Source: an uncultured Desulfatiglans sp. (GTDB lineage Bacteria > Desulfobacterota > DSM-4660 > Desulfatiglandales > Desulfatiglandaceae). From it: a stretch of DNA of 64,000 nt. Under the pieces are notes generated by a model, which did not search any database, was not told the origin of the DNA, and saw only the letters and a program-made list of their open reading frames with translations. This document shows, piece by piece, positions 53,635-64,000 of this stretch. The stretch is taken from the NCBI GenBank assembly GCA_900498135.1, contig LR026961.1, positions 1,082,386 to 1,146,385 of the forward strand, in the 5' to 3' direction. The position numbers and the translations under genes were made by a program. Every line of letters starts with the position of its first letter. Within the stretch, counting starts at the first letter, position 1.

Positions 53635-54375
53635 TCACCTGGCAACAGATTTTTTCAGAAGCAGCAGCCCTTCTTCCTCCCGTTCAAAAACGGGCGCCAG
53701 GCGGGTAACCCCCACCATCGTCATAATCTCCCGGAGATTTTCGGTCAGCCCTGTCAAGACCGCTTTCCGGCCGCTTTTTGCAGCATCTGAAAGCAGTTGA
53801 ATCAGAGCGGCAATTCCTGCACTGTTCATCCCGGCCGTAGCCGCGAAATGGATGAGCACCCCGCCCGCCTCCCTTCCGGCTCTCCGCCAGTCCTGCAGGA
53901 GCTCGGCCCCCGTTTTTCCATCCAGCCGTCCGGCAACCTCGAAGATAAGGACTTCCCCCTCTTTTCGAAACGAAAATACAGGGCCCAAAGGCTTCTCTAC
54001 ACGCTTCAGCCGCTTTTCCGCCCTGTCCAGAGCCGAATCGAGGGCTGAGCGGCCAATCGGTTTATTGATAAAATCCGTGGCATCGAGATCGAGCGCCTGG
54101 AGCGCCAGATCCATGTCACCGTGGCCTGTAATGACGATCACCTGGGTCCCCGGGTCAGCCGCCTTGATGCGTTGCAGGACCTCGAATCCGTCGATACCGG
54201 GCATCTTGATGTCAGTGAAGACGATCCGGGGCTTTTCTTTCTCGAAAAGCGCCAACCCCCCGGCGCCGTTTTCGGCCAGGAGGACCTCGTAGCCGTATGC
54301 CGAGAGAAAGAGGCGAAACATGGTCAGATTCGCGTTCTCGTCGTCGATGACAAGGACCTTTGGTTTAGGGCCCAT
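53635..54375 (-). CDS. response regulator with C-terminal STAS domain
   Basis: 246 residues. Receiver domain at 1-120: acidic pocket D11/D12, phosphoacceptor D55 in IVFTDIKMPGIDGF, T-loop VITGHGD, K105 in FINKPIG. After a linker the C-terminal part (about 131-246; VLIFEVAGRLDGKTGAELLQ and LIHFAATAGMNSAGIAALIQ) is a STAS domain of the anti-anti-sigma/SpoIIAA type, with a serine in NSAGIAAL where SpoIIAA-like proteins carry the phosphorylated serine. There is no DNA-binding domain. Last gene of the cluster, four bases after the RND-kinase stop, so the kinases above it are the likely phosphodonors. Confidence 0.9.
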   Translation of the reverse strand: MGPKPKVLVIDDENANLTMFRLFLSAYGYEVLLAENGAGGLALFEKEKPRIVFTDIKMPGIDGFEVLQRIKAADPGTQVIVITGHGDMDLALQALDLDATDFINKPIGRSALDSALDRAEKRLKRVEKPLGPVFSFRKEGEVLIFEVAGRLDGKTGAELLQDWRRAGREAGGVLIHFAATAGMNSAGIAALIQLLSDAAKSGRKAVLTGLTENLREIMTMVGVTRLAPVFEREEEGLLLLKKSVAR

Positions 54376-54379
54376 CGGT

Positions 54380-57364
54380 TTATCCCCTTTCCTCCCCCGG
54401 CACCGGGAACAGAACCCTGAAAGTGCTTCCCCGGCCCTCCTCGCTCCGTATTCGGACGCGGCCCCCATAGGCCTTGACTATGCCATAGACGATGGAAAGC
54501 CCCAGCCCCAATCCCTCGCCGCCCTTTTTCGTTGTGTAGAAAGGTTCGAAGACTCTGCCCAGGCTTTCCTCCGAAATACCCGGGCCGGTGTCCGATATCT
54601 CCAACCCCACCGCCCGCTTGCCCGCCCTGAAGGTGCGCACACCGATATGGTCTTCCGCCGTCTCGCCTCCGGCCCTCCGTTTGCGCAGAATCGCTTCCCT
54701 GGCGTTGTTCAGAAGATTGAAGACGACCTGCCCGATCCGGTTCACGTTGGCGAAAACAGGGGGCAGATCCGGCTCGAACTTCAGCTCGAGCCGGATGTTT
54801 TCGAGCGCCAGCTGATGCCCGAGGATCGCCAGCACTTCTTGAGCGGCGGCATTCAGGTCCACCTCCTCGCAGTCGACATCCGCCTTCTGGTCGAACCTGC
54901 ATAGGCGCTTGATCGTGCCGCTTGCCCGGTCGACCTGTTCGTCGATCTCCTGAACAATCTGCCTGAGCTGCTCCCGGGAAATCTCCTCCCCGCGATCGAG
55001 TGTCATTTTGAGATATTCGCTGCCCATCTTGATGGCATTCAACGGCTGGTTCAATTCGTGAGCCACTCCGCCCGCCACTCCCCCTAGCGGCCGCATCAGC
55101 TTCAATAAATCCCACACCGTCACCAGATCGACATGCAGCATCAAGGATGGCAGCAAAACGAGATCCCCCACCAGGGCCGCGAGCAGGGTGACGGCCATCA
55201 TCAGGCCGAAGACGGCCGTCGGTTCGAAATGGGAAAACAGCAGGACCGCAAAGCCCGAGCCGATCGTGAGTGTGGTATAAACCATCGGACGGCCGACACG
55301 CAAGAGGGTATCGGTCAAGGCGCGCTGCTTGTTCAGATCCTTTTTGAGCTCCCGGCTGAACCCGACGAGGTAATGAATGGTGTCATCCACCGCCAGTCCG
55401 ATGGCTATCCCGGCTATCAGGCTCGTCACCATGGACAGCTTGATCCCCAGCCATCCCATTAGACCGAAATTCACGATGATCGGGAAAAAATTGGCCAGAA
55501 TCGCGACGACGCCCACCCTGAGCGAAACGAACAACACCAGCATCAAGGCAAACACCGCAGCGACGGTGATCCAGAGGCTGCTCACCTGCCCCCGCGTCAC
55601 CCATTCGCTGCTGGCGGATATGACCATGCCGAAGCCCGTAGCATCGACGCGGGAGGACCCTCCCAGAACCGAATTGCAGTGTGCTTCTATCCTCGATTTC
55701 ATCCGCAGGAACTCCGCAGAACTGGAGAGGCGGGTCAGCAGGAGGATGCCGGTTCTGGAAAAATCCTCGTCCATATACGTGCGCAGCATGTCGGTCCCGA
55801 GGATCGTCTGGTAGCTGTTCACCAGCATCCGGACCTCGAAAGCCTCTTCCGGCAGGGCATAGTCATTCGGATCGAACCGATTGAGGGCATAGCGGACCAG
55901 CTTGAGATAGTCCAGGAAGGACAGGGTCTTGTCGACACCCTCGAGCGTCTGCAGATAGTCCTGGATCTCTTCGACCTTTCTCAAATGGGCCGGGTCTTCG
56001 AAATAGCCCTCCCCCTCTCCCTCCACGACCACATTCACAGGGAAGGAGCCGGTCATATCCCGGTACGCATCATGGAAATGCCTGCTGATTTCGCTTTGTT
56101 CCCTGAAATAGGCGACAGGGTTCGTCTCGACGCGGATGCGCGTCATCCCCCAGAACGCCAGAAGGATCACCACCGCCAGGATGGGGAGGGTCATCCTCTG
56201 ATGGGCGACATCGATCCGGACAATCGCCTCGAGAAATCGGGCAACGCAGGCGTGGGGCCGTGCAATCGACGATAGACGGCTCCGCGGTGCCGGCAAGGCC
56301 GTCAGAAGCGCGGGGAGAAAGGTCAAGATCATGACCAGGAGGCAAACCATTCCCAGGCATGAGAAGAGCGCGAAGGACCGGATCCCCTCGATCCGGTTGA
56401 CGAAAAGCGAACCCAGGCCGATGATGGTGGTGGCCACCACCAGGCCCATCGGCAGCGCACTGCGCGAAAAGGATTGGATCACCGCTATCCTGTTCGAGGC
56501 CGCGTTCTCGAGTTCCTCGAGGTACATGGACCAGACATGCATACAGTAGGCCGTTCCGACGGCAATCAGAAAAACGGGCACGATCATGGTGAGCATGGTC
56601 AGGGGCACCCCCGTCATGCCCATCAGCCCGAACACCCAAATCAGCACCATCAGCACAATGCCGAGAGGGATCAATATCCCCCGAAGGTCTCTGAAAAACA
56701 GAAACAGCAACACCGCGATCACACCGAATGTCAAGGGAGGCAGATGCAGAAAATCCCTTTCCGTAAAACGGGAAAGGGCCTCCGAAACAACCGGCATCCC
56801 AATCTGATACAGATCGATCCCTTGTCGTACCCGCTCTATTTCCTCCTGCACTGCATTCACGACCGCCCGCCGGTCTTTGGAGTCGTCGAGCAGCAGCATG
56901 ACCGAGGTGTTTTTTCGGTCTTCGGAAAGGAGGCTCTTCCAGATCAGTTCGACCGGTTGAAGGATCTGTTCGAACTCCCTCAGGCTCTTGATGCCGAAAA
57001 GCTCCACATCGCGCTTGATGCCGGGCAGACTGATCACCCTGCGAACCCCCTCGATCTCTTCCAGGCGATCCGCCAGTTTTTCGATTGCTTTGAAGGCACC
57101 GGGCTCGAACACCCCTTTCGTCCGGGCCACGACGAGAATCACCTCTTCCGTCCCGAAAATCTTCTTGAATTTCTCATATCGGCGGGTCTCCGGCAGGTCT
57201 TCGACCGCCAGATCATACAGGGAGGACTGGAACCGAAGATGGGGAATCTGCCAGATGAAGAAGAGGGTCAGCATCAGGAGAAAGACGATCGTCCAGCGGG
57301 GATGACCCAGAATCAGCCGGATCCACTGCTGCTTCAATGCGGATTTGTAGTAGGAGGCGATCAT
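54380..57364 (-). CDS. RND/MMPL-family permease fused to a histidine kinase
   Basis: 994 residues from ATG at 57364; an ATG at 57469 would add a low-complexity Arg/Pro tail and is not preferred. Residues 1-750 form a complete RND/MMPL protein: TM1 22-40, periplasmic domain 41-210, helices 211-360, second periplasmic domain 410-590, helices 595-745 with the transporter motif GLAVDDTIHYLVGFSREL at 656-672. Directly after the last helix (LVTVWDLLKLMRPLGG) comes a histidine kinase: H769 in VAHELNQPLNAIKMG, N-box NLLNNAREAI at 883-892, G1 DTGPGI, F-box FYTTKKGGEGLGLGL. Permeases of this type are often lipid or hopanoid transporters; kinase fusions are uncommon. Probably senses its transported or bound lipid and signals to the neighbouring response regulator. 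Confidence 0.9.
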   Translation of the reverse strand: MIASYYKSALKQQWIRLILGHPRWTIVFLLMLTLFFIWQIPHLRFQSSLYDLAVEDLPETRRYEKFKKIFGTEEVILVVARTKGVFEPGAFKAIEKLADRLEEIEGVRRVISLPGIKRDVELFGIKSLREFEQILQPVELIWKSLLSEDRKNTSVMLLLDDSKDRRAVVNAVQEEIERVRQGIDLYQIGMPVVSEALSRFTERDFLHLPPLTFGVIAVLLFLFFRDLRGILIPLGIVLMVLIWVFGLMGMTGVPLTMLTMIVPVFLIAVGTAYCMHVWSMYLEELENAASNRIAVIQSFSRSALPMGLVVATTIIGLGSLFVNRIEGIRSFALFSCLGMVCLLVMILTFLPALLTALPAPRSRLSSIARPHACVARFLEAIVRIDVAHQRMTLPILAVVILLAFWGMTRIRVETNPVAYFREQSEISRHFHDAYRDMTGSFPVNVVVEGEGEGYFEDPAHLRKVEEIQDYLQTLEGVDKTLSFLDYLKLVRYALNRFDPNDYALPEEAFEVRMLVNSYQTILGTDMLRTYMDEDFSRTGILLLTRLSSSAEFLRMKSRIEAHCNSVLGGSSRVDATGFGMVISASSEWVTRGQVSSLWITVAAVFALMLVLFVSLRVGVVAILANFFPIIVNFGLMGWLGIKLSMVTSLIAGIAIGLAVDDTIHYLVGFSRELKKDLNKQRALTDTLLRVGRPMVYTTLTIGSGFAVLLFSHFEPTAVFGLMMAVTLLAALVGDLVLLPSLMLHVDLVTVWDLLKLMRPLGGVAGGVAHELNQPLNAIKMGSEYLKMTLDRGEEISREQLRQIVQEIDEQVDRASGTIKRLCRFDQKADVDCEEVDLNAAAQEVLAILGHQLALENIRLELKFEPDLPPVFANVNRIGQVVFNLLNNAREAILRKRRAGGETAEDHIGVRTFRAGKRAVGLEISDTGPGISEESLGRVFEPFYTTKKGGEGLGLGLSIVYGIVKAYGGRVRIRSEEGRGSTFRVLFPVPGEERG

Positions 57365-57505: not shown

Positions 57506-59524
57506 TCAATCCTTGGCGGGAGGAAATGTCAAGGTAAAGGTCGTTCCGACGCCTTCCTCACTTTCGAAGGAAATCTCCCCGCCGTAGTCCTTGACGATCC
57601 CTTGAGAAATGGAGAGGCCAAGCCCCATCCCCTGGCCCATCCGTTTGGTCGTGAAGAAAGCGTCGAAAATCCGCCGGCGCAGCGCCTCCGGAACGCCGCT
57701 CCCGGTATCGGAAATGCTTACGGCTGCCTGCCCCTGATCCAGAAACGAGCGGACCCGGATCTTCCTCTCACCGGAAAAGCCGGTCGACTCCCGCTTCTGA
57801 TTGATGGCATCCCGTGCATTGGCAATCAGGTTGAAGATGACCTGCTCCAACCGATTGACATGGCCGTAGATCAGCGGAAGGGTTTCCGTCAGATCCAGTT
57901 CCATCTCGATGTTCTGGATGCTCAACTGCCTTTCGATCATTTCGTAGACATTACGGATCGGCAGGTTGATATCGATTGTTTCGCGGGCGAAATCCGCCTT
58001 GCGGCCGAATTCCCGGAGGCGCTTGATGATGCCCGTCGCGCGGTCGACCTGTTCGCTCACCTCCTTCGCAACGCAGTCGAGATCCTGCTTCGGAACGGTT
58101 TCCCCTTTCTCGAGCATCATCTGGAGGAATTCGCTTCCCATCTTGATCGCGTTCAGCGGCTGGTTCAATTCGTGCGCGATGCCGGCGGACATTTCCCCAA
58201 GCGTGCTCATCTTGCTGGCCTGAATGAGCTGCGCATCCTTTTCGAGCATCTCCGTAATATCGGTGACAGCGACAATCATCACGTCCCGATCCTGGACCTT
58301 GGAGGGCACGGCATGAATATTGACAAAAAAGGGATCTCCGTCCTTTCTAAAATGGCAGACCTTCGAATAGGACCGTTTCACACGACCCTCGGCATCGGGC
58401 CGGAAAAGTGCGTCTTCCCGCTGCCCTTCCCTGCGGCAGGCCAGGGCGGCAAACGAGCGTCCGATCAGTTCTTGGCGCCCGTATCCATAGACCTCCTCGG
58501 CGCTGGGGTTGGCGTCCAGTATATCCAGGGTTTCCCGGTCGAGCACGAAGATAGGGTTGGGCCCGCTCGTGAAAAGGGAGCGGTATTTCTCCTCTGATTC
58601 CTGCAGCCGCTCCTGCGATGCCTTGAGCCGGAAGGTCATGTTCATCAGCGAATCGGCCAACTGCTTGACCTCGTCGCGAGCCCGCCGCTTGTAGACGACA
58701 CAGTCATAACACACCTGAAGCTTTTCAGGGAATTTGGAGGTCGCCTTCTCCATGAATTCGGTCCCGTCGACATACCAGCAGGGGACCTCGATATTGTGAT
58801 GGGCCGGACAGCTGTATTCCCGGCATCGAAGTTGCTCCCAGCACCGCGGACGGCTTCCCAGGTGCGACTTGACATCGAGATTCCCCCGGCTGATTTCGTC
58901 CGCCAGTTGAGTCAACTCCCAGATCGGGCGTGTGATGTACTTGGAGAGCCACCGGCTGACCAGGAAAAAAATCACCACGATAGAAGAGAGAATCCCGAGA
59001 TAGGTCATCCGCAGATTGGCGATGACACCGTCTATGTAATGTTTGTCGAGACCCACATGAACTGCACCGATCTCGTAGATGCCCTCGAGGATCGGGACCC
59101 CGATGTCATAGGCGCTCATGCCCTCCAGATTCAGGAGGCGGATGGTGTAATTCTCGCCGGCCTTCACGACATTCGCGCCGGCAAGACCGTCCGGAAAGGG
59201 ACGGATGAAATTGTGGGCGATGACGTTATGCCCATCATCGAGGATGAAGATATAGGCGATCAGCTGCTTGCGCTCTTCAAGCCTTGCCGCATCGAAAAGA
59301 AGGCTGATGAGGTTGGGATAATCTTCCGTCAGGATATAGCTCCGGCCCGTATCGGCGACGGCCCTCGCAATAGCGATGCCTCTCTGCCGGAGTTCTTCGG
59401 TCATGCTCGATACCAGGACCGTCCGCGTCACCAGGGCGCTGCCAAAACTCATCATCAAGATGATGGCAAGGATCGAATAGAGGATCTTGTTCTTGAGGCT
59501 GATATTTTCGAATCGCTCCATCAT
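57506..59524 (-). CDS. membrane histidine kinase with HAMP, two-CW and PAS domains
   Basis: 672 residues from ATG at 59524, overlapping the stop of the binding-protein gene by ATGA. TM1 about 17-38, periplasmic sensor 40-172, TM2 173-194, HAMP 195-220, then a six-cysteine region: C228 and C249 each before W, with C234, C239, C272 and C275 (two-CW pattern). PAS about 308-425, HisKA with H451 in AGIAHELNQPLNAIKMGSE, N-box NLIANARDAI, G-box DTGSGVP and MGLGLS. The cysteine cluster could hold a metal or respond to redox. The kinase core is nearly identical around H451 to that of the RND-kinase next door. Confidence 0.92.
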   Translation of the reverse strand: MMERFENISLKNKILYSILAIILMMSFGSALVTRTVLVSSMTEELRQRGIAIARAVADTGRSYILTEDYPNLISLLFDAARLEERKQLIAYIFILDDGHNVIAHNFIRPFPDGLAGANVVKAGENYTIRLLNLEGMSAYDIGVPILEGIYEIGAVHVGLDKHYIDGVIANLRMTYLGILSSIVVIFFLVSRWLSKYITRPIWELTQLADEISRGNLDVKSHLGSRPRCWEQLRCREYSCPAHHNIEVPCWYVDGTEFMEKATSKFPEKLQVCYDCVVYKRRARDEVKQLADSLMNMTFRLKASQERLQESEEKYRSLFTSGPNPIFVLDRETLDILDANPSAEEVYGYGRQELIGRSFAALACRREGQREDALFRPDAEGRVKRSYSKVCHFRKDGDPFFVNIHAVPSKVQDRDVMIVAVTDITEMLEKDAQLIQASKMSTLGEMSAGIAHELNQPLNAIKMGSEFLQMMLEKGETVPKQDLDCVAKEVSEQVDRATGIIKRLREFGRKADFARETIDINLPIRNVYEMIERQLSIQNIEMELDLTETLPLIYGHVNRLEQVIFNLIANARDAINQKRESTGFSGERKIRVRSFLDQGQAAVSISDTGSGVPEALRRRIFDAFFTTKRMGQGMGLGLSISQGIVKDYGGEISFESEEGVGTTFTLTFPPAKD

Positions 59525-60780
59525 TCTTCCGTTGAATGCCTCTTCACGGGAGGGGGGTTCGCCGACCCGGCAACCTGCCAGTCCGAAATCAGGTAAAAGG
59601 ACTCGTCCTCGATACGGGTGAAGTAGACCTCTTCGAGCGCTTGGTGGTCCGTCGGGCTGAAAGATATCGTGTTCGCGATCCCGATATCCCAGTACCTGAT
59701 CGTCTCGATCGCATCGATGAAAGACTCCCGGTCGACATTCCTGCCCGCCCGCTCCAGGCCCTCGACCAGGACCCTCGCGTTGATGTAACCCTCCAGACTG
59801 ACGAAATTGGGCTTGTCTTCCGGGAAAAATCGGGCGAGACACCGCACATATTCTGCGACACCCGGAAGAAGGGCCTGCATCTCGACCGATTCAGGCGGCG
59901 GAACGACCTGGCTGACCACCACCCCGTTTCCATCCGGGCCAAGGCGCCGGGCAAGTTCATCGGCGCCGACAAACGAGACGTTGTAGAAGAGGGGGTTGAA
60001 TCCAACCGCCCTCGCCTCCCGGATGAACCGGGCGCAAGGCTCGTAGGTGCCGATCATCACGACCGCCTCGGCTGCGCTCTCCCTGATCCTTGCAAGCCCC
60101 TCTTCCACGTCGAGAGTCCCCCGGATATAGGATCCCCGGGCAACGGGCGTCAACCCGTATGCCCGCAGGGCCAGTTCCGTGCCTTTGAGGCCGTCGAAGC
60201 CATAGGCGTCGTACTGATAGAACACGGCGACACGCCGGATGCCCAGATCGGCGACCAGATGCTTCACGGCGGCGGCCGTCTCCTGGTAGTAGGAAGCCCT
60301 CACATTGATGAGGTAACGGTTCACCGGGTCACGCAGCGCATAGGCCCCCGTAAACATGCCCACAAGAGGGATCCGCGCCTTTTCGATCAAAGGCACGATT
60401 TTGACCGTCGTAGGCGTACCGACATAACAGAAAAGCGCGAAAACCCGGTCCTCGATAATCAGCTTCTGGGTGTTGGCAACGCAGCGCGGCGGATCGTAGC
60501 CATCGTCATAAGCGATCAGCTCGATCCGGCGGCCATGCACGCCGCCACGCTCGTTGACAAGATGGAGATACGCGAGCGCGCCGTGCAGTGTCTGGGTGCC
60601 CAGGTAACCCGCATGACCTCCCAGGGCCAGCGAGGAACCCAGGAGGATTCTCGTCTCATCGACCTGGTAAGACGCCGGCTGCCGGTCGGCCACCCCTAAC
60701 GGTGCGTCGCAACCGGCCGCAAACATGAAGATCCCCATAAAAAAGGCCCATCGGAGACAGAACGTGATCGACCGTGCCAT
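59521..60780 (-). CDS. periplasmic binding lipoprotein, Peripla_BP_6 (LivK-like)
   Basis: 419 residues from ATG at 60780 (GGAGGGG upstream). Lipoprotein signal with cysteine in MFAAGCDAP. Type I periplasmic-binding fold: ILLGSSLALGGHAGYLGTQT, DDGYDPPRCVANTQKLI, VFALFCYVGTPTTVKIVPLI, and IRRVAVFYQYDAYGFDGLKG. Related to branched-chain amino acid and urea binding proteins, but no ABC permease or ATPase is next to it. Being first in a cluster with two kinases suggests it presents a ligand to the sensor kinase rather than feeding a transporter. This is inference. Confidence 0.9.
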   Translation of the reverse strand: MARSITFCLRWAFFMGIFMFAAGCDAPLGVADRQPASYQVDETRILLGSSLALGGHAGYLGTQTLHGALAYLHLVNERGGVHGRRIELIAYDDGYDPPRCVANTQKLIIEDRVFALFCYVGTPTTVKIVPLIEKARIPLVGMFTGAYALRDPVNRYLINVRASYYQETAAAVKHLVADLGIRRVAVFYQYDAYGFDGLKGTELALRAYGLTPVARGSYIRGTLDVEEGLARIRESAAEAVVMIGTYEPCARFIREARAVGFNPLFYNVSFVGADELARRLGPDGNGVVVSQVVPPPESVEMQALLPGVAEYVRCLARFFPEDKPNFVSLEGYINARVLVEGLERAGRNVDRESFIDAIETIRYWDIGIANTISFSPTDHQALEEVYFTRIEDESFYLISDWQVAGSANPPPVKRHSTEE

Positions 60781-62874: not shown

Positions 62875-64000
62875 ATGGCCAAACGAATCACCATCGATCC
62901 TGTCACCCGGATTGAAGGCCACCTGCGGATCGAAGTGGAAGTCGCTGACGGGAAGGTCGTCAATGCCTGGAGTTCCGGGCAGATGTTTAGAGGCATCGAG
63001 ATGATCCTCAAAGGAAGGGACCCGCGGGATGCCCCTCTTTTTACACAACGATCCTGCGGCGTCTGCACCTATGTGCACTATCTCGCCTCCATCCGGGCGA
63101 TCGAAGCGGCCGTAGGCGTCGAGGTCCCTGAAAACGCACGCATCCTCCGGAATCTCCTCCATGGAACCCAGTACCAGCACGACCACATCATTCACTTCTA
63201 TCATCTTCATGCCCTGGATTGGGTCGACATCTTGAGCGCATTGAAAGCCGACCCGCAAAAAACCGCGGCTCTCGCTGAAAACGTGAGCCAGGCACGCTGG
63301 GGGGGGACTGCCTATTTCAAACAAGTCCAGGAGCGCATCAAGACCTTTGTGGAGAGCGGCCAGTTGGGGCCATTCAACAATGCCTATTGGGGGCATTCGG
63401 CCTACGCCCTCCCGCCGGAAGCCAACCTGATGGCGGTCTCTCACTACCTCGAGGCCTTGCGCCTGCAAGCCAAGGCCGCCCAAATGCACGCGATCTTCGG
63501 TGCAAAGAACCCTCATCTGCAATCCCTGGTGGTCGGTGGAATCACCTGCGCCATGGATCTCACTCCAGACCGGATTGCCGAATTCCTCTATCTCTGGAAG
63601 GAGACGCAAGCCTTCGTCAGGAATGTTTATCTTCCGGACATCCTCGCGATTGGATCCTTTTACAAAGATTGGGCTGCGCTGGGAGGCACTTCCAACTTCC
63701 TCGCCTGGGGCGACTTTCCCGAAGGCGAAAAAGAACCCGAGAGCCTCTTCATGCCCCGGGGGGTCGTCATGAACCGCGATATCGCCGCCGTCAGACCGGC
63801 GGAGCAGGAAAAGGTCACCGAGCACATCGCCCACTCCTGGTACGAGGGGAATACCGATCAGCATCCGTATAAAGGACAGACCGCCCCTCAGCATGGCGAC
63901 TACGACCCCGACAACCGCTACTCGTGGATCAAGGCACCGCGTTATGAAGGCGAGCCGTGCGAGGTCGGTCCTTTGGCGAGGATGCTCGTGGCATACGCCA
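62875..64000 (+). CDS. [NiFe] hydrogenase large subunit, N-terminal part
   Basis: 375 codons to the window edge, frame open. ATG at 62875 with AAAGGAG upstream. L1 motif R59-S-C61-G-V-C64-x3-H68 carrying two of the four Ni-Fe ligands; TIDPVTRIEGHLRIEVEV, YQHDHIIHFYHLHALDWVD, and GGITCAMDL are typical of group 1 enzymes. The C-terminal L2 motif (D-P-C-x-x-C) and the cleaved tail lie outside the window. A 198-bp gap separates it from the small subunit gene. Confidence 0.95.
   Translation, partial: MAKRITIDPVTRIEGHLRIEVEVADGKVVNAWSSGQMFRGIEMILKGRDPRDAPLFTQRSCGVCTYVHYLASIRAIEAAVGVEVPENARILRNLLHGTQYQHDHIIHFYHLHALDWVDILSALKADPQKTAALAENVSQARWGGTAYFKQVQERIKTFVESGQLGPFNNAYWGHSAYALPPEANLMAVSHYLEALRLQAKAAQMHAIFGAKNPHLQSLVVGGITCAMDLTPDRIAEFLYLWKETQAFVRNVYLPDILAIGSFYKDWAALGGTSNFLAWGDFPEGEKEPESLFMPRGVVMNRDIAAVRPAEQEKVTEHIAHSWYEGNTDQHPYKGQTAPQHGDYDPDNRYSWIKAPRYEGEPCEVGPLARMLVAYA

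Follow-up and report, generated by a model that had tools for sequence, protein, structure and literature searches.

A recurrent fusion of an RND permease to a histidine kinase, found in association with [NiFe] hydrogenases

Results

The 64,000-nucleotide stretch of DNA from an uncultured Desulfatiglans sp. that was analysed in this study (the window) encodes a protein in which an RND/MMPL permease continues, in one chain, into a sensor histidine kinase, and this fusion recurs in related genomes, many of which also carry a sensory-type [NiFe] hydrogenase. Our preferred reading, to which we give somewhat better than even credence, is that of a transceptor-like kinase that would take its input from the RND part and, along with a second sensor, act on a single regulator of H2-linked metabolism. 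The fusion, its intact motifs, the paralogy of the kinases, the gene order and the association with hydrogenases are all backed by the sequences themselves.

The fusion protein and its junction

The reading frame runs from position 57364 to 54380 on the minus strand, with an ATG start, 994 codons and no internal stop. The following features of the gene are referred to below.

54380..57364, minus strand: RND(MMPL)-HisKA-HATPase_c fusion of 994 aa, with the RND part at residues 1-752 and the kinase core at residues 757-990
55382..55387, minus strand: acidic pair D660-D661 in TM10, within the invariant GLAVDDTIH
55109..55123, minus strand: juxtamembrane element V748-T749-x-W751-D752 at the RND/output junction, common to the cNMP and cNMP+GGDEF fusions
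55058..55060, minus strand: phospho-acceptor H769 in the HELNQPLN box, invariant in 11/11 aligned fusions

The preliminary description of this DNA, as a complete two-half RND permease followed by HisKA and HATPase domains, was borne out by Pfam, which gave two stretches of MMPL (PF03176, 1.5e-30), HisKA at residues 764-824 (5.6e-10) and HATPase_c at residues 874-989 (6.9e-24). The two homologous halves of the RND part together score 106.8 bits against PF03176, compared with a gathering threshold of 20.5, and Patched and Sterol-sensing matches are found there as well. By hydropathy each half has hydrophobic segments, with large loops between them; the TM numbers used here are predicted ones. 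The last conserved RND residue, D752, lies at window position 55109-55111, exactly where the junction had been placed (near 55110). The same description had the domains meeting without a linker, which is right in that no HAMP, PAS or STAC domain intervenes, but a short conserved juxtamembrane element (VTxWD and the 16 residues to H769) does. On the basis of its domains and its H, N, G1, F and G2 boxes, the protein is classed as a HisKA sensor histidine kinase; these boxes (H769, N887, D925-x-G927-x-G929, F942 and G953-x-G955) are invariant in the 11 aligned fusions.

The fusion ORF is also intact in G039, an independent genome from the same genus, with 97% identity to the window copy. Between the two, dN/dS is 0.136 for the RND part, 0.053 for its second half and 0.120 for the kinase, and judged by these ratios the permease half is under strong purifying selection. 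A single-sequence AlphaFold2 model of the fusion was unusable (mean pLDDT 40.6), and an Rfam scan of the window gave zero matches.

Recurrence in the order and exchange of outputs

RND-kinase fusions had been thought rare, which does not hold for this order: they were found in 11 of the 85 genomes searched (G000, which is the window genome, G039, G029, G033, G037, G040, G058, G059, G062, G072 and G080), the class-level search covering the same 85, and in two genomes of another family (G119 and G457). These counts are lower bounds, because contig ends truncate several other RND copies. The assembly of G072 is fragmented, and a frame change splits the kinase part there. A near-exact-peptide search of the genome contigs returned just an MMPL protein of 26% identity (L009) and an unrelated kinase (L010). 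As to the prospect that the fusion would prove common and already characterised, it is not rare in the order, but no paper on an RND-kinase fusion, an RND transceptor or an RND-GGDEF/cNMP fusion was found in the open-access literature (subscription journals lay outside the scope of the search). Domain databases may well contain the MMPL+HisKA architecture as an unstudied entry.

The RND module of relatives across the order shows 44-55% identity, and among 395 sampled genomes of the phylum the module turned up in a few further families. The ORFs at the relatives' loci, with representatives confirmed by Pfam, fall into three architectures that share the same junction, namely RND-HK, RND-cNMP-GGDEF and RND-cNMP, and the cNMP domain alone on the RND module is the more widespread group compared with cNMP+GGDEF. 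The sister proteins with cNMP+GGDEF include those at L042, L043, L045-L050, L084 and L085, among others. An intact diguanylate cyclase had been expected in these sister fusions, but their GGDEF motif is degenerate (RYDxxxF and similar). In a tree with uneven supports, the RND halves of the kinase fusions do not form one clade and require 3-4 label changes, which suggests that RND halves were swapped between paralogues or that outputs changed repeatedly.

Conserved motifs of the permease half

The D-D motif previously noted in the second RND half is the D660-D661 pair of TM10. D660 is present in 47/47 and D661 in 44/47 aligned RNDs, and GLAVDDTIH is invariant in 28/28 members of the close clade. 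In TM4, the first-half counterpart, members of the close clade have GTAYC or a near variant with no acidic residue, and since this acid is absent the classical RND proton relay appears to be incomplete in the fusion. The earlier proposal of a transporter-sensor, not a degenerate sensor, is plausible because the permease is complete, the D-D pair is conserved and the permease half is under strong purifying selection, although TM4 lacks the acid.

The VTxWD element was found in essentially all fused members regardless of their output and in 0 unfused full-length RNDs, its loosest version being LIGLYQ in L121; the spacing from WD to the phospho-acceptor His is constant across the kinase fusions. 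We infer that VTxWD is a transmission element.

It is somewhat unlikely, in our estimate, that the permease is degenerate and serves as a receptor only, binding a hydrophobic ligand or sensing the state of the membrane with no net transport, in the manner of sterol-sensing-domain proteins. Such a receptor would fit the lack of an acid in TM4, and the interchangeable outputs on one RND module do resemble those of a sensory input module. However, all members of the clade have Asp-Asp-Thr-Ile-His in TM10, constraint is strongest in the second half, and unfused members of the family, which presumably transport, keep the same TM10 motif.

The window operon and its kinases

Missing from the preliminary description were the operon, the cNMP/GGDEF sister fusions, the paralogues of the kinase, the response regulator that they share and the link to hydrogenases. 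In the window, the fusion gene probably forms an operon with three other minus-strand genes, the first three of those listed here, and [NiFe] hydrogenase genes diverge from it.

59521..60780, minus strand: Peripla_BP_6 periplasmic-binding-protein lipoprotein (lipobox AAGC), the stop of which overlaps the kinase start by 4 bp
57506..59524, minus strand: sCache_3-HAMP-Cys-rich-PAS-HisKA-HATPase_c histidine kinase, the core of which is paralogous to the fused kinase
53635..54375, minus strand: response regulator with receiver and STAS domains (REC-STAS), beginning 4 bp past the fusion stop codon
61729..62676, plus strand: Tat-exported [NiFe] hydrogenase small subunit (TIGR00391, E 9.5e-123), divergent from the signalling operon
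62875..64000, plus strand: [NiFe] hydrogenase large subunit, continuing beyond the window end (complete in L122)

The sCache kinase gene is separated from the RND-kinase gene by 141 bp, and the two kinase cores have 48-50% identity. REC-STAS is the sole receiver of its type in the window genome. Glycosyltransferases lie downstream of its gene, and the gene of the hydrogenase large subunit is followed by those of a HycI protease and a class III cytochrome c. Between HAMP and PAS the sCache kinase is rich in Cys (CWEQLRCREYSCPAHH...CYDC) and may have a metal or redox site there. The operon's binding protein, single-length in the window, is double-length (~800 aa, with two Peripla_BP_6 stretches) in G037 and G040 (L047:16444-18837 and L052:9798-12248).

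In the kinase tree, the fused kinase cores make up one side of a branch with support 94/96, indicating a single origin. One clade (100/100) unites them with the sCache-type kinases and with the PAS kinases linked to hydrogenases, and excludes both six other kinases of the window genome and the kinases that lie beside the sensory hydrogenases of other families. The H-box specificity region is nearly identical between paired kinases. At the thresholds used, five genomes (G000, G039, G029, G119 and G457) each have two kinases of the clade, no more, and a single matching receiver, the next receivers falling to 45% identity or less; in G029 that receiver lies within the sensory-hydrogenase operon and the fusion gene is on a different contig. 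The receivers of the system carry no DNA-binding domain. The relatedness of the kinases is no proof of cross-talk. Another kinase of the clade (~770 aa), adjoining a longer receiver protein (~400-530 aa) of the same receiver type, was seen at G058:C550, G062:C156, G059:C340, G040:C29, G072:C614 and G080:C12.

Association with a sensory-type [NiFe] hydrogenase

A cytosolic sensory-type [NiFe] hydrogenase is encoded in 9 of the 13 fusion genomes; it adjoins the fusion gene in four (G457, G119, G072 and G080) and lies elsewhere in the genome in the remaining five (G029, G037, G058, G059 and G062), where it heads an operon of small subunit, large subunit, PAS kinase and receiver. In G457 and G119 the gene order is RND-HK, cytosolic [NiFe] small subunit (312 aa) and large subunit (513 and 508 aa, respectively), PAS kinase and receiver, and exported hydrogenase genes adjoin. 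The cytosolic pair has no signal peptide, and its large subunit keeps the Ni-ligand motifs RICGIC and DPCLVCTVH. The closest PDB entries to the pair are 'Hydrogenase-2' 7uur/7utd, which we take to be the group 2 enzyme Huc.

When the order was searched with the sensory small subunit, strong matches (54-71% identity) came only from G029, G037, G058, G059, G062, G072 and G080, all seven being fusion genomes. The hypergeometric probability of seven out of seven falling within 11 of 85 genomes is 6.7e-8, and that of five genera falling within 8 of 47 is 3.7e-5, although the count by genus removes relatedness only partly. The same search found no sensory hydrogenase in the window genome or in G039. 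Fusion loci with no adjoining hydrogenase include those of G029 (C1), G040 and G058/G059/G062. Outside the order the sensory hydrogenase is also present without the fusion, beside other kinases, and therefore its presence does not depend on the fusion. In one unrelated family (L151:4579-8523), the genes of a cytosolic sensory-type [NiFe] hydrogenase have a Peripla_BP_6 gene upstream of them, so that both kinds of input are again paired.

It is unlikely that the hydrogenase association is incidental, with the module regulating some other process in anaerobe genomes that are simply rich in hydrogenases. Some neighbours would suit this explanation, such as the AMP-ligase/ketosynthase-like genes at L051 (G058), L054 (G059) and L055 (G062), all of one genus, the molybdopterin oxidoreductase in L053 and the redoxin/rhodanese in L052. 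Against it are the adjacency in at least three lineages, the co-occurrence in genomes (p about 4e-5 by genus), and the kinase clade and receiver type held in common.

Discussion

Our results suggest that the HAE3-like RND permease would act as a membrane-embedded input, joined via VTxWD at the end of TM12 to HisKA/HATPase_c. We infer the steps of sensing, coupling, convergence and target as follows. The conformational or protonation state of the RND part, set by substrate and/or proton-motive force, would shift the kinase/phosphatase balance, the conformational change passing through TM12 and VTxWD to the DHp domain. The second kinase would read another cue, a periplasmic solute in the case of the window and H2, via the cytosolic [NiFe] sensory hydrogenase, elsewhere. 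Both kinases would set the phosphorylation of one receiver (REC-STAS in the window), which would in turn adjust H2-linked electron metabolism. In the window the target is probably the exported [NiFe] hydrogenase, because its genes are divergent from the operon.

More tentatively, the system could be a hub that senses H2/energy through several inputs, with three paralogous kinases that would act on one receiver: the RND-fused one as a sensor of the membrane or proton-motive force, one as a sensor of periplasmic solute, and one linked to the H2-sensing hydrogenase. The RND part would then be a general input module with kinase, cNMP-binding and GGDEF outputs, that is, an RND-based class of transceptors.

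The direction of control could in principle be the reverse, with RND transport under the control of the kinase half, as it would be of the cNMP domain in the sister proteins; we consider such a regulated pump improbable. The cNMP-binding domain is a typical regulatory domain, many relatives have it as their only output domain, and the degenerate GGDEF active sites of the sister proteins may bind rather than produce, yet the fusion retains every catalytic box of the kinase as well as the phospho-acceptor, and the gene of a matching receiver adjoins. That an assembly error or frameshift has joined two genes deserves practically no credence, since apart from the split frames in some relatives from fragmented assemblies (L030, L102 and L104) nothing speaks for it, the window genome is a single 4.8 Mb contig, and G039, where the ORF is likewise uninterrupted by the frameshift or stop that was looked for between the domains, and 11 further loci have the same architecture. 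Being intact in an independent genome and recurrent both in the order and in another family, the fusion is neither an artefact nor a singleton.

A recurrent class of RND-kinases in which the junction is fixed, the outputs are swappable and an acidic pair is conserved would allow a direct test of whether the conformational cycle of an RND protein can drive signalling, a question that is relevant to Patched/Dispatched/NPC1-like proteins. Such a class would also give hydrogen sensing in anaerobic bacteria an arm that has gone unrecognised.

Most of the known transporter-kinase fusions are SLC5 proteins. The fusion appears to work most like the CbrA/CrbS transceptors, with which it shares a polytopic secondary-transporter domain placed N-terminal to HisKA/HATPase_c in one chain. 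In CbrA and CrbS an SLC5 transporter is joined to the kinase through STAC (PMC7096432, PMC13022988). A structure is given in PMC13022988. CbrA transports histidine; the transporter domain appears to modulate the autokinase, and transport is unaffected by substitution of the His (PMC7096432). In contrast, the transporter fold of the fusion is RND/MMPL and not SLC5, no PAS domain precedes the kinase, and the receiver adjoining the fusion is REC-STAS or a receiver only. By its domain content the fusion is not a member of the CbrA family, because neither SLC5 nor STAC was found in its Pfam scan.

The RND half is closest to the HAE3-type RND/MMPL permeases, TIGR00921 being its best NCBIfam match (E 1.1e-69), and it resembles them in its two homologous halves and the DD in TM10; HpnN and MmpL are more distant. 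Its score of 235.2 lies below the TIGR00921 cut-off of 351.9, so that it is HAE3-like only, and it differs from HAE3 proteins in lacking the acid in TM4 and in carrying cytoplasmic output domains. In HydDB, [NiFe] group 2b comprises H2 sensing linked to histidine kinases, and group 2c is putative and linked to diguanylate cyclases (PMC5037454). The cytosolic [NiFe] pair, soluble PAS kinase and receiver of G457, G119 and others are similar to these groups as described. Unlike them, these loci also encode a kinase of the same clade that is fused to an RND permease, and their receivers have no DNA-binding output. Compared with the histidine-kinase-linked H2-sensing systems, the window genome has the fusion without a sensory hydrogenase, whereas G457, G119 and others have one.
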